This document shows, piece by piece, positions 1 to 64,000 of a stretch of DNA of 64,000 bases. The position numbers and the translations under genes were made by a program. The notes under the pieces are model-generated. The model saw only the letters and a program-made list of their open reading frames with translations, was not told the DNA's origin and made no database searches. Numbering within the stretch: position 1 is the stretch's first letter; each line of letters begins with the position of its first letter. The stretch comes from Oryzias latipes (lineage: Eukaryota; Chordata; Actinopteri; Beloniformes; Adrianichthyidae), in NCBI RefSeq assembly GCF_002234675.1, contig NC_019875.2, positions 24,890,299 through 24,954,298 on the forward strand. Direction: 5' to 3'.

Positions 1-39419
<39,419 letters not shown>

Positions 39420-39699
39420 TGCAGCAGCGTTCCCCTCTAAAACCACGAGACTGTCAGGAGCGCAGTTCTGCAGCAGTTAGTGGCCGCCGGAGGAGCGCGC
39501 GGCCGCCTGACATTACATGTCACATGTGCGGTGTGTAACAGGTCTCCCGCGTGGAGAAGATGACCATCAGTGTGATGATGTGTGTGAGTGAGTGTCCAGA
39601 TGAGAGTAGGTACGGCCGGCTGGAGCCCTGCAGCTGCAGCTTTGAATGCGAAACGCCACCTCCCTCCCAGCTGGCGCCTCTCTGTGGAGGAGGTTATGG

Positions 39700-42600
39700 A
39701 CCTGCACGAGCTTCAGTCTGTTAGTAACTATTAAATTACAGGTGAAGACATACTTTATGGTGATATTAATGCTTTATCTTATCTTCCTGTGAGTCAGATT
39801 GATCTTTAAGGGAAGTCTTGACAGAAATTCACAAGTTTTCTGTGTGTTTCTGATCTAAAAGTCAGACTTGTTTTTAGTTAATTTTACTCATCTTCTCTCA
39901 GATTTTGCATCATTTACCACAAGGCAAATACCATACTAAAGCACATGTATTAAAGAATAAAAAGAAAAGTTAAATTGAGTGTAAATGTAAACTTTTGTTC
40001 AAGGACTTTTTTTAATTGAGTTTTGCATCACTTTATAGTTAATTTACAATGTATTTATTTATACCTTTACTTGTTTTTATAGCTAAAATTATTCTTGTAA
40101 TTACACATTGTTATCTTATTTTCTGTTGTGCGGTGTTTTCATGTGCTGCACTATTATGGATAAATTTTAAAACAAGGATCAGACGGGATTGGTAAGGTCC
40201 AGATCTGGACTGAGTGCTTTTATTTTAGTAAGAAAACACAATTTATGTTGGAGTTGAGCTTTTTCATCATCATCATCATCCTCTTCCTCCTCCTCCTCCT
40301 CCTCATCATTATTATTATTATTATTGTCTTAATTATTATTATTATTGACAAATTTCCTCCTATAAGAGAATGTTTTAACTAAGGAACAAACCAAAATGCA
40401 TGTTTCAGCACTGAAAGATGAATTTCTCCAATAATAATGGTACAAGAAGGAAGATCATGTACATTTTAGCAGAGTTTCAAACCAATGACCTTCTAACTAA
40501 AATTCAATCCACCAGAACTTCCACTTTGGACATTTGAGTGGGAAGGAGTTTCACTCATTCCTTGGCAAACAAATGTGGAGGTGTTAAGGGGAACGGCTGC
40601 ACAGCTCTTAAAACAATGAGCTGTAAAAAAAACAAAATAAAACAGGTTAAAAGAAATATTTAAGAATTCGTTTTTAATTGTTTGCATCTTAATCTAAAAA
40701 AAACAGAACTCCAAGTTAAAATTTCCGATAAAATTTTATATTTTCCTCCTTTTGATGCAAACTGAGCCAAAAAGATAGTAACTCACTGACTTTCTGATAC
40801 ATGGCAGCTGTGAACAGGTCAAGTCAATAGATTAAAAGACCTGAAAATACTGATTCTTTTTTGTAAACTTTACATTTACTGAGATATTTTATCGTCTAAA
40901 ACTTTGTCTTTCAGACTTTCTTCCTTTTTTAGAGTTAAACTAACAGTTAATACAGGAACTTCATGTTTTATGATATGCAGAAAAAAATCTGGACAGACAC
41001 AACATTTATTGAAAGTTAAGTTTTAATGCTTTTAAAAGTGTTATGCTACGATTGATGTTGAGTAAAATTACCCAAATTATTTCTTACAAACAAAACAAAA
41101 AATTAAACCCTCAATGTCCTTAAACAGACAGGACTGATTCGCAAGTTTTAAGCAAGTTTGAAGTTGCTGCTATAGACTCATGAGAAGCTGGTGGAGAAAA
41201 TAATGGAGCAACAAAGGGAAAGTTGATCATAGCTGTTGTATGAAGGTTTGGTTTGCACATTAAGGTTCCTTTAAAGACTGCATAGTCAAACTACTGACCA
41301 AAAAGCATGGGGAAATGTTTCAAACTAGAGAGCAATCTTCAAACTAGAACAATTTAATTACTTGATGGAAACTTTTCGGCACTGTTTACCATAAATCTGG
41401 AGAAGAAGGAATAAATCTTGCTAGTTTGCCACCCTAGTCAGCAGGAAACCACATTGATTGCTCTGTGATATTCTGAGACTAATTTGTTTCATTTTCTTCG
41501 AACCTGCACAACCAAAAAAGCAAGACTGACTGTTGGTACCAGAAAGACCTGGGAGAAAAAAAATCTATGGTGGGAGAGATAAAGTTCATGTGCCATAACG
41601 TTCCTGCAATAATTCCAAAACAATCTGAATAAAACACAAGAGCCCGGTTTTTGCAATAACACAGAGTCTTACGGCTGTCCCATTTGGCTGACTAGAATCA
41701 TGTGAAAAATCTTCTTTTAAATCTTCTTTTCTTTTATAATTTTTTTTTCTTTTCTTTGTTTGAACATGTGTGCACGTTTTGGTACAGAAGTACACCGAAT
41801 GCCAGAATAAACTACATAAAGTACAATTTAAAGGCTAAAGTCTTTTTCTTTTCAGCAGTCATTCTACCAAAAATAAAAAAGTCGGAAGAATAGTACATAT
41901 TTCAAATTTAGTTGTAATGAGTGAAAGTTAAAACTGTTTTTCCAACCAAACCTTTCAAGCACCATGAGTACTCTGATGCACAATCAACTTTGCATCATTT
42001 GGACTTTATATTTTATGGCCACCAGAAAAACAAACATGTATTTGTTTGACACAAAATTTGAGGACATTTACGACTCTGATTGACAAAAAAAAAAGCAAAA
42101 TAAATGTATGCTTGAGTCCTGATGAGCAACTAAGATATCATATTTCTGTAGCTAAAGCTTCTTTATTATGTGTGACAGGTAAAACTATGTTTTAAATGTT
42201 TTTCACATATAAAGCTCAGAAGGACCATCCTTTTCATATCTTATTCACCGTCCCGCATTTCCCCGACAGAGAACTTCCGTGAAAAGAGGATTCCTTTTTA
42301 GAGTTTCCAAAAGCAGAACTGGAGGCAGATGTTTTACCTTTCAGGCTTCTCTGAGTCAGCTTTGGATTCAGTTTGGGATGTGGACATACTCTCTAAAGTT
42401 AGACTGAATGTCTGTAGATAATCCAGTATTTTTGTGCTTTCATTCCCTCTGCCATCTTACTTAACCCAAACCAGATCAGGCAGATGCCTGCCGTTGAAGT
42501 CTAGTTCTAAAGGAGGAGGTCAGGAGGTCCGACTCTTCCAGACCACTTTCAGTATATGGAAATGCACTCAACAACTCTAAATATGTGATCTAGTACCGTA

Positions 42601-43700
42601 GTTAAATAATAAAAGTTTTACATTTTGGAATATTTTTAATCCTTTATCATTACTGTAACTGATTGAAGTCATGCACAAGCTCTTTACAACAAAATTTACA
42701 ACTTTACTGGTCGGTAAATCTTTGATGTCTCTATAGAGCAACATTTCAAATTGATTTAAAGGCAACAAGTTTAATTGTTTATGTTTTGAACCAAAAAAAA
42801 GTCAGTTTTCAGATTTAGATTTCTTTTACTTTAACCCGTAAAAACCCATGGTGACATCCAAAAGAAAAAGATCAGAAATGTGTTCTGTGGTGCTCTTAGA
42901 CTATGCTATATCTCACATAATAGTCATTTAAATGAGTCTTGGTTCTTATGGGTTAAGATATTCGAAAGTTTCATAAGTAAAAGCCTTGTAGGTAAAAAAA
43001 AAAGTTTTCAAAAACAACTAAGGAAGTGAGTCATTTTTAAATGGTAGACACCAAGGTCACTTGTGGTACTTTTCGGATTAAAATCTCAATTTACTTTAAG
43101 GTCAATCCTGTGTGACTGTTGATCAAACATTCAGCATCAGGCTGCAGCTGATTGACTGAAGGCAAAAGAAGCAGTGAAAAAAACAAGAGCACAAGAATAA
43201 ACCAGGACCTCAGAGACCACTAAATGACACACAAGCTCAAACATGTTTTCGCAAGGATGTAGTTATTTATGAAAATGCATGGACACACGGGTCTGCAAAG
43301 TCTTTTAGCCACTAAGTGTCACCGCCTTGATCACATTAGAAGCTGGCAGCCACAGGTATGCAGAACCATGAGGACTGGAGGCTCCGCAGCCCTGAGAAGC
43401 AACACAGTGACCCACATCTAAAAACCTCCATGGGATTCAGATCTCATTTCCTGTATCATTATATCTGATAAACATGAAATGGGAGATAATGTTTTGGTTT
43501 ATTTTAGACTTAAAATGAAAACTAAAAGACTAAATTAGTCCTTGGTGCGTTTTACCAGACAGACAGACAGCATAAGGACCTTGAGTCACTCCAGCGAATC
43601 AATCACATGTTTGACCACCTATGCCTCTATTTTTATAATAGAAGTTTCTTGCGGCAGCAAGAGTAAAATATAAAAACTGTCAAAAAATAGCATCTAAAAG
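39700..43700. other. Intergenic DNA upstream of clcn2
   Basis: AT-rich sequence between the clcn2 promoter and the CpG-rich segment at 43.9 kb. Apart from the triplet repeat at 40264 I see no exon, RNA gene or clear mobile element. Confidence 0.6.
40264..40347. repeat. Compound trinucleotide repeat (CAT/CCT/ATT)n
   Basis: Consecutive runs of CAT, CCT, CAT and ATT triplets upstream of clcn2 exon 1. Likely length-polymorphic. Confidence 0.9.
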
Positions 43701-43859
43701 AAACCTAAATAACAGAAAATATACTCAATATCTGTATTGGACCTTCATTTGCCATTTGTCCTTGAGCCGGATCTGGACAAAGTTCGGGGGATCCACGATG
43801 TGATTGTGAAAGAAAAAGGCAGAAAGAGACAGAATTTGCCAGCACGCAGTGTACTCACC

Positions 43860-44460
43860 GTTTTTGACAGGAGCTGTTTTTTTTATAGCCTCCTCCTCGG
43901 GTTAGGGATGGAGAGTCGTCAGCTGCGTCCCTCCATTGCGCCTCAGCAGAATCTTGAATGGAAAAAAGAGGCGCACAGCCACAGGTTGCAGCGCTCACTT
44001 ACAGAATCAAACGCTATGTGAGCGGATAACAACCGGCCGTCACACAGCTCTCCAAAGTGGGGACGCCTCACTCAATTGATCCCGCAGACTGGCCTGTTGC
44101 TGATGCGCAATCCATCCATGCAGCCCGATTCCAAAGTTGTCAGCGCGGCGCGTAATTACCGGTTAAGCGCCTGCGAAGCTGTGCACAGCGGGGAACGCGG
44201 CTCCTGCGCGTCTGTGGAGACCATGACTTGAGCGACAGTCTGAGAGCGCGGTTGCATGAGTCAAACAAACTCTGTGATAGGATGATACAGCCTCTTCATC
44301 GGCTCCCGTGGAGGTGGGAGGGAGACAGTGGGGTACCGGGTGTCGTGTCCGTGATGCAATGCGGGTACCATCAGTGCGGCCCGCAGTCTTCTCCAAATGT
44401 GCAAAGGCTCCGGCGATCCGGTCATTATGCGCGGAGGCGCGGCGCACATTCGTCTTAATT
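43860..44460. promoter_or_regulatory. CpG-rich segment, possible unassigned promoter
   Basis: CpG-dense sequence (GCGCGGCGCG, CGCGGAGGCGCGGCGC) between clcn2 and thpo. On the minus strand a TATAAAA lies at about 43879-43886 and a good donor (CG, then gtgagtac) at 43857-43859. No coding exon is convincing. It could be an alternative clcn2 first exon, a non-coding RNA promoter or a distal enhancer. Confidence 0.35.
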
Positions 44461-46145
44461 GGCCGCAGACGGAATTATCTGCAGAAAAATGAAAACACTC
44501 TGAAGGAGAAAGTGGTGTTTAATGTTTCTGCTCTGTCTCTTCGTCTGTCTCCCCCCCCGTTTGCATGTGCCAGCACACAGACGCATCACGGGTCCATTAG
44601 TCGTCCTGCGTCTCGCCAGGCGCAACAGGAACGGAGGAAAGGAAGACTTGACTAGCGCTTTTTTGAAAATGGGGATCATGGTGCATGCCCTCAATCTTCC
44701 CTCGCCCTTCTTGTCGTTTTGACAGCTTTTAAACCCAATTGAGTTGCAGCCATTGCGTCCTCCAGCTGCGATCCCCCTCAAAAACAAAAAAAAAAAGAAA
44801 AAAAAGCTTGTTGTCCTGTCAAGGAAAATATCTTTATCTAAAGTCTGCAAATATGAGGTTACATATTTGGCCCTTAGAATAAAACTGTCACGTACAGGTT
44901 ACAATTTTTTTGTGTCTTTACTGAGATGTTTCTTCATTCTTGCTGATAGATACATCTTATTTGTCATTTTCAAACGTTAAATGAAATTAAAACATTCGTA
45001 CCTAAAAACCTACTACTAAAAAATAGTTAATATATTCAACTACACAAAAAGTGCCTAAAATGTGTTAAAAAAAACCCAGAACAAAACATTTTTAAACGTA
45101 AGCTGCTGTTTATTTTTGGACAGAAAACAAACCAGTAAAAATAACTAAAAAGCGAAAATGCTTAAACATTGACTGACATGACGCCATCTTTGTGGGAGTG
45201 TAATATTTTAACAATTTAATTCACATCTGTGGTTAATTATAAGATTCATCGTTAATTTTGGTTCCGTAGATGTTTGGATCCAATTCACTAACCTAAAATG
45301 GATCCAGGACATCTTTAGACAAAACCTCAACCAGAGTGACTTTGAGATAATTACCTGGATACTGAACAGAGCAATGGAAGTTTTCCAGATTCCTTATATT
45401 TCTAGCAAGATAATCAATTGTCCATCAAATGTGTGTACAAACAACCAGGTAAACAAGAATTAATGGCAAATCCATTCACATTTTTGTATCACATAGTTCA
45501 GTCCACTGTTGTTTTTCCACATCAAAACAATACAAACAGAACATTATTAGAACATTCAGTGTTTCCACACATTGGACTGTAATAATGGCCATTACGTGTG
45601 TTGCCGCTCTAATGCACTTGGTTATTTTTACGCTGTAGTAAAATAAACCCACCATGCCTCAATCCAAATGGTATTTTCCAATATGGATATATCTTTCTTT
45701 TAATGATTTCAAAATTGTATAGGTCAACTAAATTAACAACTTGCCTCAGAAAGATCAATTGGGTTACATCGTAGGAATATAAATCAATTAAATCAATTAA
45801 CGTGTAAATGTTCTTTCATAATGTTTAATAATTAATCTCTAGTCACAAATATGAGTTCCGACCCGGATAAGAATGGAAAAAAGTGCTGCTGATATCACTT
45901 ATTTCTCATTCTCAGTGTGAAACACTTTATGTGTGCCGACTAGAGAAGTTGGACAGCCTCCTGCTCTCAGGCTAGATAACACTTGCACTTCCCACTACTG
46001 AATGAGAAGGTGGGAAATCAAGTGGGGAGACAAAAAAGAACACGCAGCTCCTTTCCATGAGGCACTGTAACACTGAGGGCATTCTCCACCTGGCACATTC
46101 CAGGATTAACCTAATGTGGGCTCACCAGGAGAAGCTGAGCTGGAC

Positions 46146-47664
46146 ATGGCTTTGAGCAGTGAGTACTCACCCTCAAACTGTTGCTGGACTTGTCATAAAC
46201 TGGCTTGTAGATCCACAGCTAAGTGTTTTTCTATGAGTTCATCCAGGTCTCCTGCTGCTCTGGATGGTTGCCTGTAAGGTGTGGGACACTGAGGCTAAAC
46301 CCATAGCTTTTGTGTGCAACAGAGCTGCCAGGAGAGCATTGAACATTGTGGCAGAGCTGGAGGGTGCACTGGTGAGGGAAGAAATGTACCTTTTCTTAAC
46401 TTTGAGATCATTTTTGGCAAAACGTATGTGTTTCTCATGAGTCTTTTTTGATTCTTACCATAACTCATCCACAAGCCTGTTGGTTGCCTGGCTATTGTCC
46501 CGGTTCTGCTTCCTTTCAGAGTGTGTGCGCTGACTTGATGACCCTTTCCTCTCCAGTTCTGCTTCCCTGCACTGGACTTCATGCTGCAACATGGGGAGAA
46601 AAATCTGTATGTCTTTAAATTTGTTATCTGCAGTGGAATATTTACCAGTTCTTGAGTTTGTGCTCTATCAGACAAGATTAGCTAAATATTTCCCTTTATG
46701 ACACATTTTGTGTTTTTGTGTGTTGTTACAGGAGCTGGAAAAAAGAGAAGATATTGTTGTGTCATTGAAGCTTCTTTCTGAGAATATAAGAACTATAAGA
46801 AACTCAACACAATCTGAATGTGGAACTTTATTGCTGCAGAGATTAGAGAACAACATCAGAAACTATTTGCTCATAATCACAAATCTTCAGCTGAATGTAA
46901 GAACAATTAAAACAAGCTATTATGTGGAGCACCTAAAAACTATATTTTTGATTGCAAATATTTAGATGTCTGACATGCATGACACAGTTTTATTTGGGGG
47001 TTTTTACTTTCTGTCTTTTTTTCTTAAATTAATTCTGTTTCTAACATGCAATACTTATCTTCCCGCTTTAAGAAAAAAAACATCTGAAGGTTTTTTTGTC
47101 ATGAAAAAAAATTCTAATATAATTTCACAGCACACGTTTATAAGCTACTATTTTTGATTTCCACTTTATTATGATGCGCTAACAACTTTTTCCAGTGGCT
47201 GAATTTCCTGGTTTCTCATAAAAGTACGACTTTCTGGAATATCCCCTCCCTGGAAGTGATGATGTTTAGTTGTGTGACTTCTAAGCTTCCTTCCTGGGAA
47301 TGTGACAGAGATAATATTGCATAGTTTCCCAGTGAGACAGTCCTTCTAAAAAGTCACGAGTAAAAGATGTTGCTTATCCCAAAACACATGTATTGCAAAA
47401 GGGGTGCATTTAATTTCATTTTTGTGCATAATGTCTTAACATGACCTTTGATTTTTTCAGGTTTATGTGTTTTGCCTGTCATCAGCCTCAGCTCTTCCTG
47501 TTTTTTGTTTGGACCAGCAGGGGTCAGTGCTTCCTCCATCATTGTCTTGTGTTCCCCAAAGCACCCAGAGTCTGAGAAGAGTCTTGGAGAGCTACAACCA
47601 GTTGATCACTGGCAAACTGGAGAGTTTCACTCTCACGTTGGGAGACAGATGCACCTCTCAGTGA
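46146..47664 (+). CDS. thpo: Thrombopoietin (four-helix cytokine, EPO/TPO family)
   Basis: Secreted ligand of Mpl, controlling thrombocyte and progenitor production. Five exons: 46146-46158, 46247-46371, 46520-46606, 46732-46896, and a last exon to the TGA at 47662-47664. The last exon starts at 47461 (197 aa) or, better, 47521 (177 aa); both acceptors keep phase. The first exon gives only MALS plus one base, and the protein continues SLLLLWMVA, as in mammalian MELTELLLVVML. Mature start KPIAFVC; SSPVLLPC and W71 in exon 3 match the TPO PTPVLLP..W segment; the end SLRRVLESYNQLITGKLESF matches the TPO helix-D region. C28, C49, C105 and the final C fit the two TPO disulfides (7-151, 29-85), whereas EPO pairs 29-33. 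One NST sequon (N99). The long mammalian glycan domain is absent. Next to clcn2, as in human 3q27. Confidence 0.85.
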
Positions 47665-48133
47665 CACAGAAACAGCTATTTTCCCCTGTCTTCAGTTCCA
47701 AGATGTTCATAGAAGTTAAATAAGAACTGGTTTCTGTTCTCTAATATTAAAGTTTGATCAGACCATCTAATTTTAGCTTTTTGTACCAAATTTATTTTAG
47801 CTTATATTTTTTGACACACATGCCTATAAACATTCATTAAGTGACACTACATATTGCACTTTACTGGGTTGTTTTCAAACGCCACTATTTATTATTATAT
47901 TACTTCTATATTTAAGCTTATATTGTATTCTAGATATGTATTTGTTCTTCCCACCTTTTTAAAAATACATGTTTCATAAGTATTTGCCTATTCATTTTCT
48001 TAAGTATTTTTTTGTAATTGTATCAGAGGCTAAAGCTACACTTTGAATCATAAGGACTGAAAATAAGTACACATTGTTACATGTCATATATTTGAAATTG
48101 TTTTGAATTTATAGACAAAAATCGATTTTTCTA

Positions 48134-48381: not shown

Positions 48382-48904
48382 TGACCCACTGGATTTATGG
48401 TGAACCTTCCAACGTCTCATTTCCTTTTGCTTTAAACCTGTTTTTTTCTGTATTATTAAACAATAACAATAATAGAAAGAATAACAAATTGCAGAAATAA
48501 GTACTCAATAAAAATTAAGTGTAGACACATATAGCCTAAAAACAATTAAAAATGACACAAAATTTGTTTGCAATTTGTGCAATTACGCAACATTTTGCAT
48601 TATTTAAAGGTTTGACTTTCTTTTAGTCAATTCAGTAACAAGTTTCATTGTAATGATCGAATTATTTCCTGAAATCCATTAATTCTGGACATGTTTTTCT
48701 AAGTCTGGGACTTCTGCATTTAGTATTCTAAAATTTGGTGTGCAAAAATAATTAAATGTTTTGTTTCTTTTCCACATTTTACCTTAAAGGGAAAACCTAC
48801 ATGTTTTTTTGAATCAATGTTTTATTTATGTATATAAATGTACACATAAACATATTGCAAACTGAAACCGATAGATACATTTGGGAAAAAAATGCCCATT
48901 AGTC

Positions 48905-48990
48905 CCCTATTGGGTTTTCCTAACACTGATGACGCAAATGACGTCATGGTTTAATTGGTTGAGGTCTCACCTGCAGGTGCAGGTGGAGGG
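48905..48990 (+). promoter_or_regulatory. slc12a9 promoter with full CRE and CCAAT boxes
   Basis: The perfect 8-bp CRE TGACGTCA is at 48939-48946, with reverse CCAAT boxes (ATTGG) at 48909 and about 48954, and a cluster of CAGGTG-type E-boxes at 48968-48985. It lies 120-200 bp upstream of the ATG at 49109. The elements are seen; their use by CREB/ATF or NF-Y is inference. Confidence 0.5.
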
Positions 48991-49108
48991 GTTTGAGTTT
49001 ACCGCCCCGGGTCAGTGCTACAGTGAACTGAGTCAACGACTTCTTCATGATTTTAAATGACCACGTTAGTCTTCTTTTCTTTCAAATCGAGCGGCAGAAT
49101 CGCAAAGA

Positions 49109-52100
49109 ATGACAGAAAAAACACCTTTGTTGCACCACGGCCGGAACTCCGGATCCGGTCCAGATCCGCAGGTGTCCGACCTGACCGGGCTCCAGGGGGG
49201 CAGAGTGGCCGGGCGTCCGGCGGGCCCGAAGCTCGGAGTCATGTTTGGAGTGGTCATCCCAACCCTGCTGTCCATGTTCAGCGTCGTCGTGTTTTTACGC
49301 GTGGGTGTGTGTCACGGACAAACGAAACCAGAAATGATTGGAAAATTACTTCTTGGAAAAGCTGACCTGGAATTACAGGATTTGTCTTTAATTCCTTAAT
49401 TTTTTTATTTTTTAGCTTCCTTAATACTTCTTTTTACCATTCATTTTTAAAGATTTTATTGCACTTTAAGTTGCAAAATGATTAATTTTACGTTTCAAAT
49501 TGAAGCACAAGTAAAACAAATTAAATTAAGATTTCAACTTCACACCTGTAATATGCTTATTTTTCCTAATAAGGGTTCCTGGTAGATTTTCTTTTTTCTT
49601 ACAGTTGGACAATGAAGTTATCATTAAAAATCCTTTATTGTGCTTAAACTCAAATAGCTTGAATGAAATGACTTGAATATATCAATGTTTTTAAAATATC
49701 TATTATGAATTTATGGAATTCTTTCTTGCAGGATTTGTTGTGGGTCAAGCTGGACTGTACCACTCCATTGCCATGTTTATGGTGGCGTACTTCATCATTA
49801 CAATGACTGTTCTTTCTGTTTGTGCCATCTCTACCAACGGGGCTTTACATGCTGGAGGCGCTTATTGTATCCTTGACGAGACAAAAGTAGCTGTTTTGTG
49901 TGATTTTTTTCTTATTGTTTCCTTCTGTTTTTCCTTGTGCTGTCATTTTCGGAGACATTCTTTCATTTTGATTCCCAGACATGATCAGTCGAGCCCTGGG
50001 CCCTGAGTTTGGAGGCAGCATTGGAATTATGTTTTTCCTTGCCAGCGTGTGTGCATGTGCTCTTTACATTTTGGGTTTGGTTGAGGCCATCATGACTACT
50101 TTTGGAGTACCAGAGGGTAAAGTCCAGTACAATGTCAGATATCTTTGCATGAGTGCTTTAAAGCAGTACTTTCTTCTGACTGTCTCACAGAAGATGCTGC
50201 GGTTGCTGCTGGTCATCAGGTGTTGCCATCGGGGTACTGGTGGTGTCTGCTTTACGGCACCATTCTGCTTTTTCTGTGCTTCATTGTCTGCTTGGTGAGA
50301 CCTGCATATTTTACTCTAAAAAAAGTTTTTTTTATGTCTAGTTTTGGATTATTTTGTCATTTTTGGTCGTCTTCACAGCTGAGAAAAAAAAGCTTTGGCA
50401 TGTTCTTTTAAATAATGTTTTAAAATCATATTGGAGGTGAAATCCTTCACCTTCAGCCTCAGAGTTGCTAAGTTAAGAAAAAAAGAGTCAACTCTGAGTG
50501 GAAATTATAAATTATTATAAAAAATGACAATAATTCATAAGTGGCTATTCCATTTTTGTTTGATGTTAATATTCAAACAACGAGGTGAATCCAGAATTTA
50601 GATTTAAATTTATCATCCTGTAATTTATTTTAGACATGACTTCATTTCAAAATAAAATTTATTTAAAATATGAAAGAAAAGAATCTGAAAGACCCACTTC
50701 ACTTATGTTTTGATCTATTGTAAATGCGTTCCCAGGGGTGTTTTAATTATGATTATCCATTTTTATTTTATTTTAGGTGCTCCATCAAAAAACTGCCCCA
50801 ATAATATCTGACACAAAAACATATTGAAAATATTAGATTTTGAACCTAACATATTGTTAAAGAATGTTGATGGTTATAAGCTTGAAATAAATTTTTTTGT
50901 GTTTTTACATTAAAGGTAACGATGGTTGTCTACTATAGCAACAATGGTAGACTTCAAAGACTGTTTTCAGAAGTAGAAATAGTGTCTAAATATTCTCTGA
51001 AAGGGTATTTACCAGATATTATAAAGAATGAATGTACGCTGTTTACTTAAAACTGTAACTTGTCTTTTTAGGTGGGAGCTCACATCTACGCCAAAGCCAC
51101 TTTCTTGATTTTCATCATAGTCATGGCAGTCCTGGCTTCTGTGTTCATTAGTTTCTTTGTTCTGGAGCCCACTGTGGTGATTCTACCAGATACTTTTCAT
51201 GTTAACAACACCAGCCCAGCCACTGCTAATTACACTGGCGTCAGGCTCCGCACTCTGGAGGGCAATCTATTCTGTAAGTGTCCTTAGCTATTATTGGTCA
51301 AAATGAATCTGTCTGCTCTCTTAGAAGGAAGGGCTGAGGCAAAAATATTGTCTTGAAGCATATTTCATTTCCAAACTACGGGGGCCCTGAAAAACATAGT
51401 TAAATTTGAAAAAGCAAAATTAATAATAAAAGACATTACATTTTAGAAATTAAAATGAGAGAGACTGAAACATTTAAAAAAAAAAAACGTTAAATTTTTG
51501 AAAAAGAGGGAAAGCAGAAGGATGTTTTGCCTGCACTCTGGTAAAGAGTTGATTGAGAAACCACCAAACCTTTGCAGTGGCTGTAGCCAGAAGCTGGAAG
51601 ATATTTCCAAATAACTTCCAGCTGAAAAGGTGAACAAACATCATCCAATCAGTCATGTCCCAAATACTTACCTTTTCCTGTTTATGTATTTGGTTAAATT
51701 TCTCTTTGATTTCTGGAAACGTTTCCTTTTTATATTTTTTAAAAATCACGTTTTGGTTTCTGGTATTTTGTTTAGATTTCTGAAATGGAATGGTTTTTAT
51801 TATTATTATTATTTTTTTTTTTTTTTTTTTTTGATCTTTAATGGGCCTTTTCTTTTAGTGATTCGTTGATGTGATTTGTACTTCAGGGCCACCATACTAA
51901 ACAGACAAATAATGCCTTTTCAGTTGTATAAATTATTTTCCTTCTTTAAGCTCATTACACGGTGGACTACACCACCGGTGACCTGATGAGTTTCGCCACT
52001 GTGTTTGCTGTCTTGTTTAACGGCTGCACTGGGATCATGGCCGGATCAAACATGTCAGGTATGACCTGAGAGAACTTGGGATGCAATACTGTAATTTTTA

Positions 52101-55100
52101 CGAAACATTAGACACGTGTGTTCAAGTCTAAATTTATGAGAAAGCTTAAATATTTTGGGGATTTTCACTAATGTGTTGCATCATAATCCAATATTTTCTT
52201 TTGTCTGGACACCTTCGTATCGGATGTCACTGTCTGACAATATTGACTTTTTTCCCCCGTAATTTAAAACATCAGAAAAGTTGTGGATTCTGGAAAATTA
52301 CATTCCATCAGTTGCTTTTTTAAAAATCAACTTTGGCAGACAGTCAGTGTAGTTCTAAAATATTCCATTTTAATAAGTGTGAACTTCTGGCTTTTGTTAT
52401 CCAGGTGACCTAAAAAACCCCAGCTATTCCATCCCGAGAGGAACGCTTGCAGCCGTTCTCGCAACTTTCATTATATACAATCTCATTAGTCTGCTGTCTG
52501 CGCTGACCTGTGACCGGTGAGACGCAACACAAATGCACATAAAACACACAAACATATCATCAGGGGGCTGGAAATGTCTTTGTAAATGCCACAATAAGAG
52601 ACTGACATTCGCTGACTTTTATTGGTTTATCTTCTAAAGTGAATCTTAAATTGGATTTTTTTTTTTTCTTTCACTAATCACACAGTTACCTTCTCCAAAG
52701 AGACTACAGTTTTCTGGGAGATATTAATGTATGGCCGCCAATGGTGACAGTTGGAATCTACTCCTCTGCCATGTCTGCTGCAATGAGTAGCCTCATAGGA
52801 GCTTCCAGGATCTTGTACGCTCTATCAAAAGACAACTTATTTGGTGAGATTTTTCTTGGAATCTATTACTTTTCAATTTGTGTGATTAGGACTAAAAAAA
52901 GCACAGACTTTTGTCTAATTTGCCAATTTGACTAGGAAGATACTGAAGTATTACTAGGCCACCCAGGAGAAATGATCTCCCTAGTGTGTCTATGGTCTGT
53001 GTCCTGCTGATTGGACATAGCTGTAACGCCTTACTTGGACAGCATCTGAGTGGCATTTTTGCCAAACAAACTCAACTGGCTCTTCTCACTGTGGAGGAGT
53101 GCCACATCTATGAGTTTTCCCAGATGGCTAATCTTTGCTCCCTGTAGCTAAGAGAAATTCCAGCTACTCTGCAAAGGAAGCTCATAAGATCTACAATCAG
53201 ATTAATTCTGTAAACCACAGCTAATGGCTGTTGGTGAGAACGTAAACTGACAGGCACATCAAAAGCCTTGTCCTGAGATGCTGCTCTCTCTTGACTCTGT
53301 AGACTGGTTCAAGGGCAGCATAGCTGTGGATGCTGCACCAATCCATCGTAAACATATGTAAACAGCCATAAATAATACGTCAATGGATTCTTAATCAGAA
53401 ATGATCAAAACGTGACAGACTAGGTAATGTTGGTTTAAGGAGACATCAGTGCCAAACCTTATCAACAAAACTTTTAAAGTCTCACTCAGATCATCTTTTC
53501 ATCTATTTTCAAAGCATTCCCAGTGGTCTTTCAATTACGATGATGCCGTTTTTAGGCAAAATCAAATGACCTGTGTCTTTTTCTATGACATAGTTTCTGC
53601 AGAGCGGCAGTAGTTCTTTAGAAATTTGCCTTTGAGTTGTGGGCGGAGCTATTGGTAAGTTGTAAGCCCCTCCCCCATTTCCCATCACAATCTGTTCAAA
53701 CGCTTTCCCACTAGCTTACAGCCCTTCACACCCTTATCACAATATTGGCAGTGTGATCAAAATGGCGAGCAATTTCTATCCAGCCGCACAGTTTTGATCC
53801 AGATGCAAGGTCAAGGAGAATGAAGACGTAGATTGATCTATTTGCCTGCAAGTGAATGCATCAGAATGGAGAGGAGCAGGAAGCTTGTGGCTTTCTGATT
53901 GTAGCTCCTGACTCAAATCTATTTGAATAAAGAAACATTCAAATGCAGTTTTAAGCTTAATTTTCTGAATATATATATATATATATAATACCCCAGAAGA
54001 AAAATGCCACAAGGACATGTTTAAAATACTAAGAACGATTTTTTTGGAGTGGCTCTTTAAACATGCTCCTATATTGGATTGTTAAGAAAATCTGAACTGA
54101 TTGGAGCAGGAAGGTAAAACGTGATTATTCCAGTAGGTTCTTCCTTTATTCCGATATTTTACATTATGATTGAGGCAAAGCAGTTGATCTAAAAACAGGG
54201 GAAAAAAATGCTTCTTTGTTTAATTATTCAGCCATCTGCATATATGTGATTTTTGTAAGATGTTAAAAGCTTGTTTTGAGCTTAATGTCTCATTGTCCTT
54301 GTAGGGATATGTTCATTTGGAAGGCATCACTTTGCAGATGGCAGTTCTGACTTTCTATGAAGGAAAAAGTCCTTTCATTGTGCATTTGGCTTCAAAAGTG
54401 CAGAATGACTCACTTGTTTGTCTGATTTGGTGTTTGTGAGTAATAGTTTTCTCTTCAGGAGGCCATATTTTGCTTTTAGAAATCAAATACATTTACTCAC
54501 ATATACATATCCTGACTAGGATTACATTTTATCCTAGTCTAAAAAAGGTTTATTAAAAGGAATGTGGGGAGAGTACGTTCAAAAACTCACAAGTGTCGCA
54601 AACCTGAACTTCCACCTTTAGGCCATGCCTGCTCAAAGTCAACTTTATTTGTAGAACACCTCAAAGTGCTTACATAAAAATACATTTTTTTTTTTAAAAC
54701 AGTAAAAATAGCAGTCATAAAAGAAGCCCCTTAACACACATGCACCTTGTACAAGACAAACAGGGAAAAATGGTCCATAAAATCAAATTAAAACATGCTG
54801 AAATGTAAAAATCACAGAAAAGCTAAGCTATAGAGATGTTTTTTCTTAAATTCCTCCAAAGTGGATGAAGCCCTCACATCCGTTCCACAGGTGAGGCCCA
54901 CAGTGCTGGAATGTGGCCTTGCCGTGCAATTTTGTTGTTTACATTTTTAAAATGTTTAGTTGAAAAAAGTCATCAAATATTTTGTTAATTCTTACATCAT
55001 TTTAGGTGTATTTTTGGCACTTGCAAAGAAAACCGCTCGGAGTGGGAACCCCTGGGTGTCTGTGCTCATTTCGTGGCTCTTCGTACAGGTGAGGCGCTGT

Positions 55101-57598
55101 TGAAGGCGTGGCCTGACAGTCCTTCATGCACAAATGTGATTTCCTTTAAAACTGTATGTGCACAAAGAGGTCAACGCTATTTCTTTATTGAAATGGTAAA
55201 TGTGTTGACAATATAATCAACACATAGTACAGAACAGATTACAATTGGAGATTAAATAGGAAATGGTTTGTAAATTATGTGCAGGCCAATGTGGATTTTT
55301 TATACTTTTACAGAAGTGACAGGCTGGAACATTACAGAATATTGACCACAAACACTTTAAACATATTGAATGATCATCCACTTTTAGATGTTGATAGGCT
55401 TTTTATTGTTGAAGGCAGGCAGAGCTGAATGTTTTCTTGTTATTTATTTCTTCCGTTCAGTCTTGCCTCTTGGATTTGGTGCTCTTAACATTTTTTTTGT
55501 TAGGTAAATCATTTGGTTCTTATTTTTTATTAGTACTTTAAATCATTTTCCATTTTTCTTCCACTAGGTGGTGCTATTTGCTGGAAAATTGAACACCATA
55601 GCTGGCATTGTCACCATCTTTTTCTTGTTGGTTTATGCTGCTGTGAACCTGGCTTGTTTGGCCCTTGAATGGGCTTCTGCACCAAACTTCAGGTATGGCG
55701 GACAATAGCAATTCTCTCTTTTGGGGGAATGTGTTTCACCTTAGAACTTTTTTTTTTGGTCTTGATCCCTCATTTGTAGACCCTCATTCCGCTTTTTTAC
55801 GTGGCATACCTGCACTCTTGGCATCCTTGGCTGTCTGGTCATGATGTTCTTGATCAGTCCCATTTACGCTTTTGCCAGCATAGTCTTCATGTTGCTCCTC
55901 TTGATGCTTATACACTACCTGGGGCCATGCAGCAACTGGGGCTACATAAGCCAAGCTCTTATTTTTCATCAGGTATATGATAAATTTACCTACATTCCTA
56001 ACTATTAGTAGGAATTTTTGAATGACTCACTCATTTTTCCTGCTGCAGGTGCGCAAGTATCTGCTGATGCTGGATGCTCGAAAGGACCACGTGAAGTTCT
56101 GGAGGCTGCAGGTGCTGCTGATGGTTGCAAATCCTCGCAGCAGCACGCGCCTCATGACTTTTGTTAATGACCTGAAAAAAAGTGGTCTCTATGTGCTGGG
56201 ACACGTAAAGCTGGGATCCCTTGGTGAGAATCATTGAAACTCGGGAGGCTTCTGTGTTTAAAACATGACTTCAGATTTCAGATGCAGATATTTTAACAGG
56301 AGCAACGTTTATGTTCGATGAATTATAATTTTCACTCCTTGGTACTCAAATCAATTTAACTTTTCTTTGGTGGGAAAAAAGGGGCATTTGCAAATAGAAT
56401 GAAAGTAATAAGAGACGTTGTGGACCTAATTGTGTTTATGTGATTGTGCAGATGGCTTGCCTTCTGACCCACTGCAGAGCTATTACGACTCCTGGCTGTC
56501 TTTAGTGGATCATTTGAAAATTAAGGCATTTGTAAACTTCACTCTGGCCGACTCGGTCAGACATGGAGTCCGGAATCTGCTTTTCATTTCTGGCTTTGGT
56601 AGGACAATATGAAAATATTATCATTCATTTTTCTCCATAGTTTGTTGACACAAAATATCTCCTGGTTTCTAGGCGGAATGAGGCCAAACACCCTTATCTT
56701 AGGCTTCTATGATGACTGCATCCCTCAAGATAACTTGTGCAGTGACCTGCTCTTGTCTGATGAAGGAGTAGATGCGGTCTGTCCGATTATAAATTCTGGG
56801 CAGCATCTTTCTCCGTTTTTCCCTGATGTACGAGGTGCTGAAGAACCCAAAGAGCTGAGGGAAGAAGAATATGTGTCCATCATTGCAGATGCTCTCAAAA
56901 TGGGAAAGAATGTGATTCTGGCTCGTTATTTTAACCAGTTTGATCGGCAAGAAGTGCTGGGTTTAGGGAAAGGGTTTAGAGATCACCAAAAGGTAAAAGG
57001 GCCATTCATTGATGTATGGCCTCTGAATCTGCTTCAGCCTGGCAGCCTTGGATACGTCAACATCTCCTCATTATTCCTGCTGCAGCTGGCCTCCGTGCTC
57101 CAAGAGGTCCGTGCCTGGAAACAAGCCAGTCTCCGCCTGTTCTTGTGTGTGGAGGCTGGTGGCAGGCTGCAAGAAGAAGAAGAATTGAGGCTTCGGAGTA
57201 TGCTAAAAGAGTTGCGAATATCAGCTCAAGTGCAGAAGGTGGCTTGGGATAATGTTGTGAGACTGCACTGGCAAAGAAGAGGTGGGGAGGAAGATCTGGT
57301 GGAGTACCCACAGACTGATGAAGAGAGGCTGAGGCGGCAAAGTGATAAGGATGACTCTGTTCAGACCCGCCTCAGTGACGCTTCGCCCACGCCAGATGAG
57401 TACATTTGCGCCGTTAACAGTCTAATATTCCGGCACAGCTCTCCTCAAACTGCTGTGCGTTTCCTGCATTTGCCCCACCCCCCATCGGATGCACGCCGCT
57501 ATCGTGTCTACCTGCATCAGGTGGACTTGTTGAGTAGGGACCTTGGCCCGACTTTGCTCATCCATGGAATTACTCCTGTCGTCACAACGGATTTGTAG
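49109..57598 (+). CDS. slc12a9: Solute carrier family 12 member 9 (cation-chloride cotransporter-interacting protein 1)
   Basis: Polytopic membrane protein of the cation-chloride cotransporter family; its substrate is less settled than that of NKCC/KCC members. Fourteen coding exons: 49109-49304, 49732-49866, 49979-50116, 50191-50294, 51072-51273, 51951-52058, 52405-52516, 52686-52843, 55006-55088, 55568-55692, 55780-55972, 56049-56223, 56452-56598, 56673-57598. They total 2802 nt, 933 aa (human about 914), with all phases consistent. N-terminus MTEKTPLL; first helix around residues 44-65 ([15 protein letters not shown]). Sequons at N236, N237 and N244 (HVNNTS, ANYT) mark an extracellular loop. 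Family motifs: [43 protein letters not shown] and [19 protein letters not shown]. The long last exon encodes most of the cytosolic tail and ends [18 protein letters not shown], the family C-terminus. Confidence 0.97.
50688..50910. mobile_element. Same MITE family, copy D (partial) in slc12a9 intron 4
   Basis: Begins GACCCACTTCACTTATG and continues TTTGATCTATTGTAAATGCG then TTCCCAGGGGTGTTTTAAT. The remainder is decayed. Confidence 0.55.
51795..51832. repeat. (TTA)n then poly-T tract
   Basis: Four to five TTA units followed by about 20 T in slc12a9 intron 5, on the coding strand upstream of exon 6. Confidence 0.85.
53473..54061. mobile_element. Same MITE family, copy C (longest) in slc12a9 intron 8
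   Basis: About 589 bp from TTTTAAAGTCTCACTC to TTTGGAGTGGCTCTTTAA. It carries all blocks seen in the other copies and an (AT)n run at 53969-53988, so it serves as the reference copy in this window. Confidence 0.75.
54633..54935 (-). mobile_element. Retroelement 3' fragment in slc12a9 intron 8
   Basis: AAGCACTTTGAGGTGTTCTA then CAAATAAAGTTGACT on the minus strand resembles the 3' end of the element at 34873. The rest is AT-rich and decayed. Confidence 0.45.
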
Positions 57599-57777
57599 AT
57601 TATCAGAATCAAACTATCCCCATTTTTATGTGCGTTTGTCACCGGATTTCAACTACGGTTAATCCCACATTTAACATTGATCCTGGTTATATTTGCACAT
57701 TTTATAAAATGAAAGGAAATTGACAAAAAGTTCTGAGCTGACCCATTGAGAAACTTTACAATTTTACTTTTTAAAAT

Positions 57778-57787
57778 AATAAATAAA
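57778..57787 (+). terminator. Polyadenylation signals of slc12a9
   Basis: Two overlapping AATAAA hexamers about 180 bases after the TAG stop at 57596-57598. Confidence 0.7.
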
Positions 57788-57799
57788 AGGTTTGTCAGA

Positions 57800-60700
57800 A
57801 GTTGATCAAAAAATGTCTTGAGGTTCTTCTGTAGTTTAGGAATTGTCACGTTTGATGACAATTATCCAAAAGAAAGTCAATGATATAACCGCACAGCTAT
57901 GGGAAGAAATTATTTTTAAAAATGTATTCAAAATGTTTTTTTCTTGACATATCTGTGACGTATGTTGCTTGATTTGAGAAGAATTTGATTCGTTTTGCAG
58001 AGTACTGACACCCGCCCACACACTCCTGAACAGCATGCAGGATGGTGTGTTGTCACAGATGGAGGCAGGGTTTGGCGCCATCCAAAAACCTTGGCTGCCT
58101 AGCATGTTAGCATGTTTCTTATGCTTTTCATGCTCCAACATTAAGTAAAAATCACAAAGAAGCAACAATTATCAGAAGGCACTTGTGTCAAAGGTCTCTT
58201 TCATCTTGAGCGGCCATCAGTAGAGGAAGAATGGAGTTAGCCAAGAATTTGCATGAATGCTGATGTAGGAAAAATACTGAACTGTAAGAAAATAAATTGG
58301 TCTTTAAATGCTTGAATGGTGTTTGTGATTGCAATTTCTTTTAAAAAAAGTGTTTTGAGCACTTTCAAATGCATTTGATTCAAGCTGCACTTATAATATA
58401 GCTTTGAGGAGGCAAACTGTCTTAATTTTTATTTATCTGAGAGTGGTGAGGTGATTTCCTGTCTGAAAAAAAGCTAGTTCCTCACAGGTAGCATCTTTGA
58501 TGTAGCAGAAATTGTAGTTTTCCGGATGCATTTCAAATTAATGTGCGAAATAGATGTAAACTATAGAGTCTAGCGGTGGTAGATAGTTTAGAGGTTGTGA
58601 CAAATTGTCAATAAAAGGGCATTTAACAAAAAAAAAGACAAATTCAATTGTTTTCCTGTAGGTGACCATGAGGATCAATTCATTAATAAACGTGAAACTT
58701 TAAATGAATAACTTTTTTTCAATTTGTTAGACAATGAAGCAACAATAAATATTAATTTACAAAAAATAGTCATACGTCAGATTAGAATAATTTAAATAAT
58801 TCCATCTAATTAGATTTTTAAATTTAATTTAACAAAATCACAAGCTTAGGTTATTTATGTGTTTTACTGTTCATAAAAGTCCACAAATGACTAGAGAAAA
58901 TGTGGCGACAATATGCAAATGTCATCTGTACAATTTTTAATGAGGACTTTCCATTATTTCATCTGAGATTGTCAAAGATAATGCAGATTCCCTTTCATTG
59001 ATTCCAAAATGCATTTTCCTGATGGAAAAAAAAAGTCATTCATGACTTGCGTCACATTTGCAACAGAATCCCATATTTTTTATTTGTGTATAATCATCCG
59101 CCTACATCCCTGCTGACGACCTGTATGTGGGAGAAAGAGCGCTCACAGACGGAAGCAGCTCCTAGTGCTGGAGGGGGAAACCTTGATTTTATCCATCATG
59201 TCCTGGATATTTATTCAGAGGCAGTGAATATTGGCTTCAAGAGGAAATGGTCTCTAAAAAGAGGGGAGGAATTTCTTGGTTTATAGTGGAATTGGAAACA
59301 AAAAAATCTAGTAATTGCTGTTTTTGAAAAATAAAGCTTGGAAATTCCTGTTTTCACTGAATATAATCTAAGGGTGTTTTTTTTTTTTTTTTTTAGTAGT
59401 ATGAAAACGGGTTATGTGAAAAAGATTAACTTCCAAGAAACTTCCACCTGTTTCAAGGTTCCCTGTAGAAATGCTGGTGGGGGAAAGACTGACGCCATTG
59501 GGCTCTTTGTACTTTTTGCAATTTTGCTTTTGTGTTTACAGTAATCAACTGGATCAAGGTTACACGTTAAATTTCCTCCTAATTCTGTGGTTAAAAAAAC
59601 AAAATCAACTCCCACTTTCTGTTGATGCAGGTTTTTTGAGAAACGTTTGGCTTTTCAACAATGTAAAACCAACCTTTTCATCTTAAACTCTGTCAACAGT
59701 TAAATATCAATAAATTGAGTTTTATGTGTTATATAATTTTATAGCAAACACTGCTAAAGAAAAAAAATCAAAAGTGGAAGATGTGGCAGCAACTTGCATC
59801 CTCATCGGCCCCTGCCGCCTGGATCTGTGCTGATGACGTAAAATGAGGCAAAAGCAGTGCTTCATGTTGGCGTGGGAGGACGGCTGCAGCATGGTTTTCC
59901 CTTGTGGGAGTGTGTTCTCTTTCCTCCTGCTCTAAAAACAATTTCAAGTTATTTCTGTGAAGATATGCTAGCCATGAACCGTTTGATTTAATCTGGCACT
60001 CAAACATTTGATTTGAACTGTTGAGAAGTGAGAATCCAGTTTTGTGTTTTGCCAGTTTGTCCATCTTTACATTATAAATACTTTTGAATATCTAAGAAAT
60101 ATCAGGAGACACAATTTGGGATCTTTTTTAATGCAAGATTTTATGCTAAGGTAACCACAAATGATCTTTTACACAGATTGGCTCCATGTTGCAGTTTATA
60201 AACCCTGCAAACAGTTAAGCACTAAAGGAAAGCTAGCTTTTTGTTTCTCGCTTATTTGCTCTTAAATTAATGTTTACTTGACAGTAATATGCAGGTTTGT
60301 TTTAATTGGGGTGCAGAAATAGCAAAACTACCCACAGGAACTCATGCAGTCCTGTAATAATGCCTGGTATGGCTGCAACACTCATGTTGTTTTGGGGTCT
60401 GAAGTTTTTTGGTTATTTAAAACCTCTTTGACTCTTTATAGAAATATCCACAAGTGTTAGCTGAAGAACAGACATGGTTTTGTGTTTACTAGAGCTTCAA
60501 AGGTGACAGATACCTTCTCTCAGAAATGCAACGATCTTAATAAACGGTTCATTCTTTAGTGTCAGTAAAATGGCATGGAGACGACCGACCTTCTAAAGGT
60601 TGGCACTAGACGCTCACTGTTCTCTCTGAGCTCTCCATTCCCTTCTGGAGCTTGGAGTTCTCTTCACGGCTTTATTTCAGGCTTTGACATCTTTTTTAGA

Positions 60701-63300
60701 CACATTTAGATCAGCTTTGTGCCTAATTTGTTATCCAAACTGACTCACTGTTCGTTCCTTTCAGCGTAACAAGTGAAGCCGTTGATCACCTACTGTTGCG
60801 TATCATTCCACCCCCTCACATCAGGGATCCCCTCTCCTTCCGTGGCCCTGAGAAGAAGCGTCGGCCGGTTTGCGTCACTCTCACGCTTTTAGTTTCAGGC
60901 ACCAAACAAGGCATAATGCTTTTGTTTGCAACAGGGGGGCCTCACCATATTTGTCAGCCATCTCACAGGGTTATTACTAGTCCTTGAGTGATGACTGCAC
61001 CCCAAATAGTGCAGATTAAAGCATTTTTGACATGTTTTCTTCCACTAATTTCATTTTACGTTTCAACAAATGTAAATGATCAGTTTCTGCCCAAACCAAA
61101 TTGTTCGTTAAAGTGCCGAAATGTTAAAACGTATTAAATTTAACATAAAGTGATGGCTATTTAAGTCGTTATTTAAGATAAGGCTAGAATCAGTGAAAGC
61201 ATCACATTGCATAAGCAGTGTAAATGCCAAAATTTGATCAAGTGATTATTTCTGACATTTGACAGAACATTTTAACACCTTCCCTTAGCCTTCAGTTGAT
61301 GCAAGCTGTCTGTGTACCATGTGCAGATGGTAAGACATACAGTATACCTCTGCTGGTCTTTGAATTACTGATCAAGGGTGAGTTCACTGTGAAATAACAG
61401 AGTTATAGCCTAATCACGTTAAAAAACTGTAGCAAGTGATCAAACCTTAGATACAAGTTCTCCAAATAGACATACATATTACCTCAGTTTTTATATATCA
61501 CTTAATTACCAGTAAAATGCAAAACAAATAAAAAGTGACACAATCTTTGAGTAAAATGTTGGAGTTCCTGCAAAATTCTCCTTTTGTAATTGGAGTTTTG
61601 TGAAATAAAATTTCGCAATACCAATCGCAGGAAAGTTCTGATTAAATATGTATTCTTATTATTAGATAAAACATGCTGCTTTAGCGGTGTGTTATGTCTG
61701 ATGCAGAGGTCTGGTTGCAGCTTCCTGCATCGTTTACTGGTCCCCTCTAACAAAAAACTGAGACGGCAGGCATGTGTTTTACATTTTCTTTTCTGTAGGA
61801 CACAAATGACTCCTAGGGGTTCCACTTTAGATGTTTAGACTCTTATATTCCTCCTACAAGTCTGTAAAATAAAAAACTAATTGAGCACATTAACTTGAGG
61901 CAACCAGATCAATCAAGGCTAAGTTCAAGGTTGATGTCCACAGCTCTGCTGTGGCAGCAAAAACAGCATGAAGAAATATGAACACGTCCAGACACATTTT
62001 GCAATATTTAGCAGACAAAAAAGCTAAATTTGGGCTCCAAAATATGCAGCAAAAAATCCTAACATGAGTCTTTGAGTCATGTTTTGAAACAGTGATGAAG
62101 TCCCTTTGAGATATATTTATTAGTAAAAGAATTTACTGTTGTAATAAAAGTTTTTTGTATAAAATAATAATGAATTAATTATTTTAATAATGTTGAAATT
62201 CCATAAGACAGCATCCTTTCCAAAGATTAAAGTCACGTTTGAAATACTGATTTTTTTTTTAATAAAATAGTTTAGCAAAAAAATAAATAAAATAATGCAC
62301 AGTAACATTTTCATATTTTTGTGTATGTTAGATTGCTTTTAAGAAGATGACCCTTTTGTGGATTTGATGCATTTTAACTTTAGGTTTCCCTGAACATTTA
62401 GCTGATAAAACCCATCAAACAGATATGTTTAGTTTTTCACTATGTGTTGTCCTTTTTCATCATTTTCCATTCATTCTGAAGCAGAGGTCTCAAGTTTCTT
62501 CCCAGGGAGCCACTTCCAGCTCCCTGGAAAAAAGGAGAATTTGACCTAGATACAACTTATTCCTGTTTTATCTATTTGATTATATTTTTATTGTACCATG
62601 AATGAAAAAAATACACTTCCTGTAAATAATTTTATAATTACAGTGACACTGTTTTGCAGTCCTTCTTCTCCTTAGCCCACCTGATACGTTTCCTCCAATG
62701 ATCCAGGTTCAGGAGAGGCTTGACCCGAGGAACTAGACAGTTGTAGCCCATCTCCAGAAAGCATCTGAATGTGATGGTTTTTGAAGCTGTTCCTCCACCT
62801 CAGAGGTTTGTGTACACCAAGCCTAAACTTTATATTTCCAACCCCTGACCAATGCAAAAGAGCTTTATTTATTAGACACATCGGGGTACAAGCAAGAATT
62901 AGAGTTGAAAATAATAACAAAAAATAAAAAAAGATTATCTGAATGTTACTAGATAAATAACATGGTATTTTTAACTTTTAAGTACCTCCTAAAGGGTCAT
63001 GACGTACCCCAGGGGTACATGTACCCTCTATATGAGAGGCACTTTACCATTTTTTATTTGAATCTATAAGGTCCCAACTCTGAGATGGAGGCTTGCATGT
63101 GACTCATCTTCATCACCTTCATTTATAAAGTCTGTACATTATTAGTTAAACATAATAAAAATAAAATGTTAAAAACAAATTTAATAGGCAAAGTAAGGGA
63201 CTGAAATCATAAAAAACAAAAAACATTTTTGGAAAAACCCTATATATATTGGTAAATATATAATATAATAGTATAATAACATCCTGAACTAATTTTATAT
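57800..63300. other. Intergenic DNA without a supported gene
   Basis: AT-rich sequence between slc12a9 and the next promoter. I looked for splice-flanked exons on both strands and found none with recognisable protein. A stretch at 62650-62830 has codon-like composition and may be an old transposon fragment, but I cannot assign it. Confidence 0.5.
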
Positions 63301-63429
63301 CTGTTATATCTGAGCTTTTTTCCCGTCCTTTTTCGTTGTGTGAAGGAACTTTGAAACTCCTGTGAATGACTGAGCACCACATTGCCGCACACACACTTGT
63401 GTAACCGTTTAGATAACAGCGGGCCGTTC

Positions 63430-63790
63430 CGAGCCGCTCTGGACCAACCATGGCCGCTGCTTCATTCACCGGCAGCTGCATGCTAGTGATTTGCTCCCGC
63501 TACTCGCACGCCGGTTTGGTATCCGTGGGTTCCCACGTGAAGGAGGTGACACCCTTACATAAAGAGACAGACAGCGCTGCGGACCAATCACAGCGCGGAG
63601 CGACAGTTTCCGCACCCGCCCTCACTTGTCATCCTTTCTCTGATTGGTCAACGTCACTGAGTTTCTGAGAGTGGCTTTGGCGCAGGCCAATCAGCGCGGG
63701 AGGGGCTGGAAATGAGGTCACTGCCTGCGTTGTGGAACCACGGCAGTGTGTGGACTCAGCCGGAGCTGGAGAAGGCAGCAGCGGAGCAGT
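63430..63790 (+). promoter_or_regulatory. CpG-rich promoter with three CCAAT boxes
   Basis: CCAAT at 63584-63588, its complement ATTGG at 63643-63647 and CCAAT at 63687-63691, spaced about 59 and 44 bp, in CpG-rich sequence, plus a canonical E-box CACGTG at 63534-63539. Tandem CCAAT boxes of both orientations are typical NF-Y promoters and allow divergent transcription. Gene downstream is not identified. Confidence 0.6.
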
Positions 63791-63895
63791 GGAGCGCAGG
63801 GTGATCTTCACATGGGAGTCCGACGGAGTGCCTCCTAACATCAGAGGCTCATTTTGGGAAGACACCGCCAACACCAGAGGAGCTTTTTCCATGAG
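63720..63895 (+). CDS. First exon of an unidentified gene (mostly 5'UTR), cut by the right edge
   Basis: Sequence downstream of the CCAAT boxes ends at a consensus donor (ATGAG, then gtgagt) with a candidate start codon ATG at 63891-63893, so only two codons at most are in view. An upstream ORF of eight codons (ATG at 63812, stop TAA at 63836-63838) precedes it. The protein cannot be named from this; if the ATG is not used, the exon is wholly 5'UTR. Confidence 0.45.
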
Positions 63896-64000
63896 GTGAG
63901 TCTGTGGAGTTTGTGGAAACTGATGCGCAGCACTACTGTGTTACCTATTTTTTTTTATTTCTGTATGATAATGATTAGGTAACATGTTCTTTCAAAAAAT

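Follow-up and report, generated by a model that had tools for sequence, protein, structure and literature searches.

The medaka thrombopoietin gene, its predicted splice forms and a probable third disulfide in fish thrombopoietins

A stretch of 64,000 nucleotides of the medaka genome (Oryzias latipes; NC_019875.2, positions 24,890,299 to 24,954,298), here called the window, almost certainly contains thpo, the gene for thrombopoietin (TPO), the hormone driving the formation of blood-clotting cells. It occupies five small coding exons on the forward strand (46146..47664), and both its identity and the fold of its product were determined by computation. Judged by its sequence, medaka thpo is an ordinary orthologue already catalogued in public data, one database lacking the proper name: the 197-aa translation is identical to the NCBI entry 'uncharacterized protein LOC110016899 isoform X2 [Oryzias latipes]' (P0003), and UniRef names a 96% identical medaka protein (P0002) Thrombopoietin. 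A first-pass annotation had called the gene hidden, an overstatement in view of these database entries.

The five-exon structure placed by that annotation agrees with splice sites, phase, tblastn searches and homologues. GT and AG sites flank all five exons, and joining these in phase yields 197 or 177 codons; no stop-to-stop frame overlapping the region is longer than one of 128 aa on the opposite strand, close to the limit of about 125 codons given earlier. In our splice model, exon 1 (46146..46158) has 13 nt, encoding MALS plus one base, and its start codon stands in a strong context (G at −3 and +4). MALS is the N-terminus of 81 of 125 listed TPO proteins and lies near the start in 93 (the list contains no zebrafish, gar, bird or amphibian TPO; one of the searches behind it gave the best 120 of 199 matches). 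Exon 2 (46247..46371) encodes the rest of the signal peptide, helix A and C28 (177-aa numbering); exon 3 (46520..46606; 87 nt, 29 codons, phase 0-0) the AB loop with C49, C63 and the VLLPC..W segment; exon 4 (46732..46896) helices B and C with C105 and the sequon N99; and exon 5, from its conserved acceptor (47521..47664 including the stop codon; 177 aa), the CD loop and helix D with C140 and C174. The TPOs of O. melastigma (P0004) and Lates calcarifer (P0007) matched exons 2–5 in tblastn against the window, with 90% identity to O. melastigma in exon 2 and no other match at E ≤ 1. Exon 1 was missed because it is too short, and the edges 46371, 46520, 46606, 46732 and 46896 were recovered by one or both queries.

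The protein is 83–98% identical to five Oryzias records (P0001–P0005; P0003 reaches 90% because of a 20-aa insert) and 55–68% identical to full-length TPOs (P0006–P0026), with 85% for O. melastigma and 66% for L. calcarifer over the whole length, exon edges in agreement and six cysteines common to both sides. These identities and the match to the Pfam family EPO_TPO (E = 2.1e-14 for the 177-aa and 6.9e-12 for the 197-aa form; domain score 54.4 bits, above the curated cut-off of 25) exclude a chance match. Comparison with solved structures separates TPO from erythropoietin (EPO), as the best five PDB sequence matches are all TPO (5.4e-10 to 2.4e-8), with EPO next at 0.022, and a profile built from 73 of the 125 proteins matches TPO at 1.4e-12 and EPO at 0.0094. 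In the mirror test, the match of a fish EPO (P0126) is 1.1e-21 to human EPO and 3.5e-7 to TPO. A maximum-likelihood tree of 34 rows (the window protein, 15 fish TPOs including two unnamed records, stretches of human and mouse TPO, 15 fish EPOs and human EPO) splits TPO and EPO rows by a branch with 96/93 support and pairs the window protein with O. melastigma TPO (100/100); the branch of human EPO is long, as the program itself flagged. The TPO identity given in the first pass is thus supported by the TPO/EPO comparison that it proposed, and modelling predicts a long-chain four-helix fold like that of TPO bound to MPL.

C28, C49, C105 and C174 correspond to residues 7, 29, 85 and 151 of human TPO; the first three align with PDB sequences, and C174 is equated with 151 by its position after helix D, the printed PDB stretch ending before C151. 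The 29–33 pair of EPO is absent in the tree alignment (SVCADLM vs CAEHC or CREGC). With C151 placed by position, these cysteines fit the TPO pairs 7-151 and 29-85 and not the EPO loop, as the first pass had claimed. It had also proposed a third bond, C63–C140. C63 is present in all 73 aligned TPO rows and C140 in 72, the sole exception being a Ser in a protein of Oncorhynchus tshawytscha (P0108); C174 is absent in one row (P0109), whose tail continues. Outside this alignment stand the other 52 listed proteins, which are truncated, extended or exon-lacking models, duplicate isoforms and unnamed contigs. In a simpler motif count that took in all 125, [LI]PC matched 115 and [SDT]C[VTL]P matched 102; those that failed are mostly frame-shifted, exon-lacking or intron-reading models, and in five (P0050, P0058, P0063, P0073 and P0085) the cysteine is retained but the residues around it differ. 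Among the listed TPOs, the pair could be followed as far as salmonids, Osmerus and Umbra; in the human and mouse proteins Ala occupies the C63 position, and the pair distinguishes medaka TPO from the mammalian receptor-binding domain (PDB 8u18, 8g04, 8vu5, 1v7m). In the model of a 180-aa form, antiparallel pairing of the shorter strand within the longer is feasible at residue sums of 207–210. C66 and C143 (180-aa numbers of C63 and C140) sum to 209, so that, as judged from the secondary-structure line, they should stand opposed just past this small two-stranded sheet. Conservation and strand register together make a third disulfide likely, one that would most probably link the AB and CD loops. 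The chain ends three residues past C174, whereas mammalian TPO continues into a long O-glycosylated C-terminal domain. Lengths of 148–208 aa in 36 named homologues, from a search covering proteins of at most 1.75 times the query length, show that its absence is general among them, and fish TPO is not defined by such a domain.

That the gene might instead be EPO or an epo duplicate was considered and rejected as very improbable. EPO and TPO share a Pfam family and a similar fold, both of which human EPO (1buy) and medaka EPO (P0202) have in common with the window protein; an SLC12-family gene lies downstream, and human SLC12A9 adjoins EPO at 7q22 and not THPO; and one Nothobranchius furzeri relative (P0034) carries the label Erythropoietin in UniRef. 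However, EPO is by far the weaker match among solved structures and to the fish TPO profile, the tree separates the two families, and the C29–C33 type pair is missing. Medaka has a separate EPO, P0202, which shares 75% identity with the fugu-type query P0126, and tblastn of both proteins against the window gave nothing better than E = 0.31. P0034, which lies outside the tree rows, is 55% identical to the window TPO over 97% and is matched by the TPO query at 4e-41, and its label therefore looks wrong; it is probably misnamed. Sequence against solved structures, tree, cysteine pattern and fold thus support TPO. Several points weigh against this identification or parts of it: the mammalian and fish TPO stems in the tree are long (1.84 and 1.85), identity to mammalian TPO is about 25%, and the Foldseek gap (TPO 3.5e-5 vs EPO 3.3e-4) is smaller than the gap by sequence. 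The locus mixes neighbours of human THPO and EPO, the opposed placement of C63 and C140 comes from a secondary-structure line, and the gene is known here from genome sequence and annotation models, X-numbered NCBI isoforms being by convention model predictions.

This last point and the NCBI label 'uncharacterized' could also suggest a pseudogene or unexpressed remnant, which we consider scarcely credible, as the frame is intact, the splice sites are consensus, all six structural cysteines are kept and the protein is 83–85% conserved in O. melastigma and O. javanicus. An upstream acceptor of exon 2 (46238..46371), by which IHPG replaces S, gives a 180-aa form identical in translation to P0001 (NCBI isoform X4), and the tandem CAGCAG acceptor at 47521 may allow a 178-aa form with an extra Gln (exon 5 from 47518..47664), a variant present in 25 of the 125 proteins. 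The span of 177–197 aa given in the first pass thus holds at both ends, with these two forms added. Exon 5 from a further upstream acceptor (47461..47664) yields the 197-aa protein, and the annotation of exactly this protein as isoform X2, together with a T-rich tract before the acceptor, would favour it as the main product. We regard this as unlikely, since the insert lowers the Pfam score (46.3 vs 54.4 bits), has a predicted local distance difference test (pLDDT) score below 50, reduces the predicted template modelling (pTM) score (0.69 vs 0.80) and brings two additional cysteines. It occurs in one of the 125 proteins, the medaka record itself, and is a medaka feature compared with other teleost TPOs; therefore the 177/178-aa protein looks like the conserved product. 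An N-G-S sequon, also found in O. melastigma TPO, is formed at the exon 4–5 junction (46894–47526) solely with the 47521 acceptor and is lost in the +Gln and 20-aa insert forms.

A different predicted splice variant recurs among fish TPOs. A clean deletion of the 29 residues of exon 3 is found in seven of the 125 proteins, one each from Limanda limanda, Platichthys flesus, Channa argus, Genypterus blacodes, Plectropomus leopardus, Semicossyphus pulcher and Perca flavescens; all are annotation models, none from medaka, and all but the P. flavescens record are called isoforms. Exon 4, whose length is likewise divisible by three, served as a control: none of the 125 skips it cleanly, the single protein without it (P0039) being a truncated genomic frame. 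Among the best 120 of 270 fish EPO matches one protein (P0240, Collichthys) lacks the matching stretch. Both exon-3 counts come from best-match lists in which short forms score low, and neither is a rate. C49 and C63, both encoded by exon 3, belong to two separate disulfides; their partners C105 and C140 remain in the short form and could bond to one another. Human EPO shares a 29-residue segment encoded by its third exon with fish TPO, and its skipping produces the variant EV-3 (PMC5473850). EV-3 acts via CRLF3 without activating the classical EpoR; in locusts, human TPO has a neuroprotective effect via CRLF3 (PMC12409108). None of the literature titles listed clearly pointed to a fish TPO lacking exon 3 or to a third disulfide in TPO.

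The medaka leader contains a candidate 13-codon upstream frame, MWAHQEKLSWTWL (46114..46155, forward strand), which starts 32 nt before the coding sequence and ends with a TGA 10 nt inside it; a longer in-frame start lies at 46057, and the upstream ATG contexts are weak (T or C at −3). Owing to a stop at 46107 in the main frame, the leader cannot be an N-terminal extension in medaka. The peptide also reads in two Oryzias-like records (P0030, P0039), TGA apparently being read as Trp. Thirteen of the listed TPO proteins extend in frame by at least 11 residues into the leader; P0112 and P0120, which begin right at the place in question, were set aside. In the remaining 11 (with the near-duplicates P0043/P0045 and P0065/P0118), the −32 place reads Asn-Val in nine, compatible with an ATG if Asn is AAT, Tyr-Val in one (compatible if TAT) and Gly-Val in one (not compatible); P0061, outside the 11 by the length limit, reads Asp-Ala (compatible if GAT). 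Translation of human TPO is held down mainly by an upstream frame that overlaps the start; loss of this frame leads to hereditary thrombocytosis, and uAUG7 stands in a good Kozak context (PMC3738444). Homology with this human upstream open reading frame 7 was considered and is not claimed, because its AUG context is good whereas those in medaka are weak, and two or three chance ATGs are expected (an estimate) in a leader of such length. A conserved upstream frame that restrains TPO is a lead only. The broader proposal, by analogy with the human genes, that exon-3 skipping in teleost thpo would yield an EV-3-like, tissue-protective ligand not acting through Mpl, while a start-overlapping upstream frame would restrain full-length TPO, is speculative and rather doubtful. 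At the other end of the gene, an ATTAAA motif (47746..47751, forward strand), 82 nt past the stop codon, is a candidate poly(A) signal.

The first pass had set thpo between clcn2 and slc12a9. An exon of a CLC-2 type chloride channel is indeed present (11113..11439, reverse strand; best PDB match CLC-2 at 4e-23, CLC-1 next at 5e-21), but this single mapped clcn2 exon lies 34.7 kb from thpo and not directly beside it. Between them is a zona pellucida egg-coat gene with trefoil, ZP-N and ZP-C domains (18359–19892; open reading frames 18176–20294, forward strand). Downstream of thpo, the C-terminal exon of an SLC12 family transporter (56603..57598, forward strand; Pfam SLC12 E = 6.5e-10) has a weak PDB match to SLC12A2 (1.8e-4). 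Synteny is thus mixed, since human CLCN2 adjoins THPO at 3q27 and SLC12A9 is the EPO-side neighbour, and would therefore fit a common origin of the THPO and EPO regions by genome duplication; none of the literature titles listed dealt with thpo/clcn2 synteny. A Pfam scan with stops read as Ala (all three forward frames of 1–9999, 16001–45999, 48501–58499 and 57001–63999; all three reverse frames of 9001–18999 and 26001–45999) found only Voltage_CLC, Trefoil (marginally below its cut-off), ZP-N, Zona_pellucida and SLC12, and Rfam and tRNA scans of the window (ARAGORN with the bacterial code) gave no hits. Several exon-like open reading frames at 531–5900 (forward strand) have no convincing Pfam match, and open reading frames at 23760–24221 (forward) and 34978–35235 (reverse) resemble pieces of reverse transcriptase of long interspersed nuclear elements (LINEs).

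Once its signal peptide is removed, medaka TPO would be a secreted cytokine with four helices and about 155 residues. By analogy with its relatives, it presumably binds the fish receptor Mpl and may thereby promote thrombocyte and stem-cell growth via JAK-STAT; zebrafish and carp TPO reportedly act on thrombocyte progenitors. In practical terms, LOC110016899 gains a name. Of more consequence than the gene itself are the exon-3-less form, a possible parallel to EV-3 of EPO, and the conserved third cysteine pair, which sets the fish TPOs compared here apart from human and mouse TPO.
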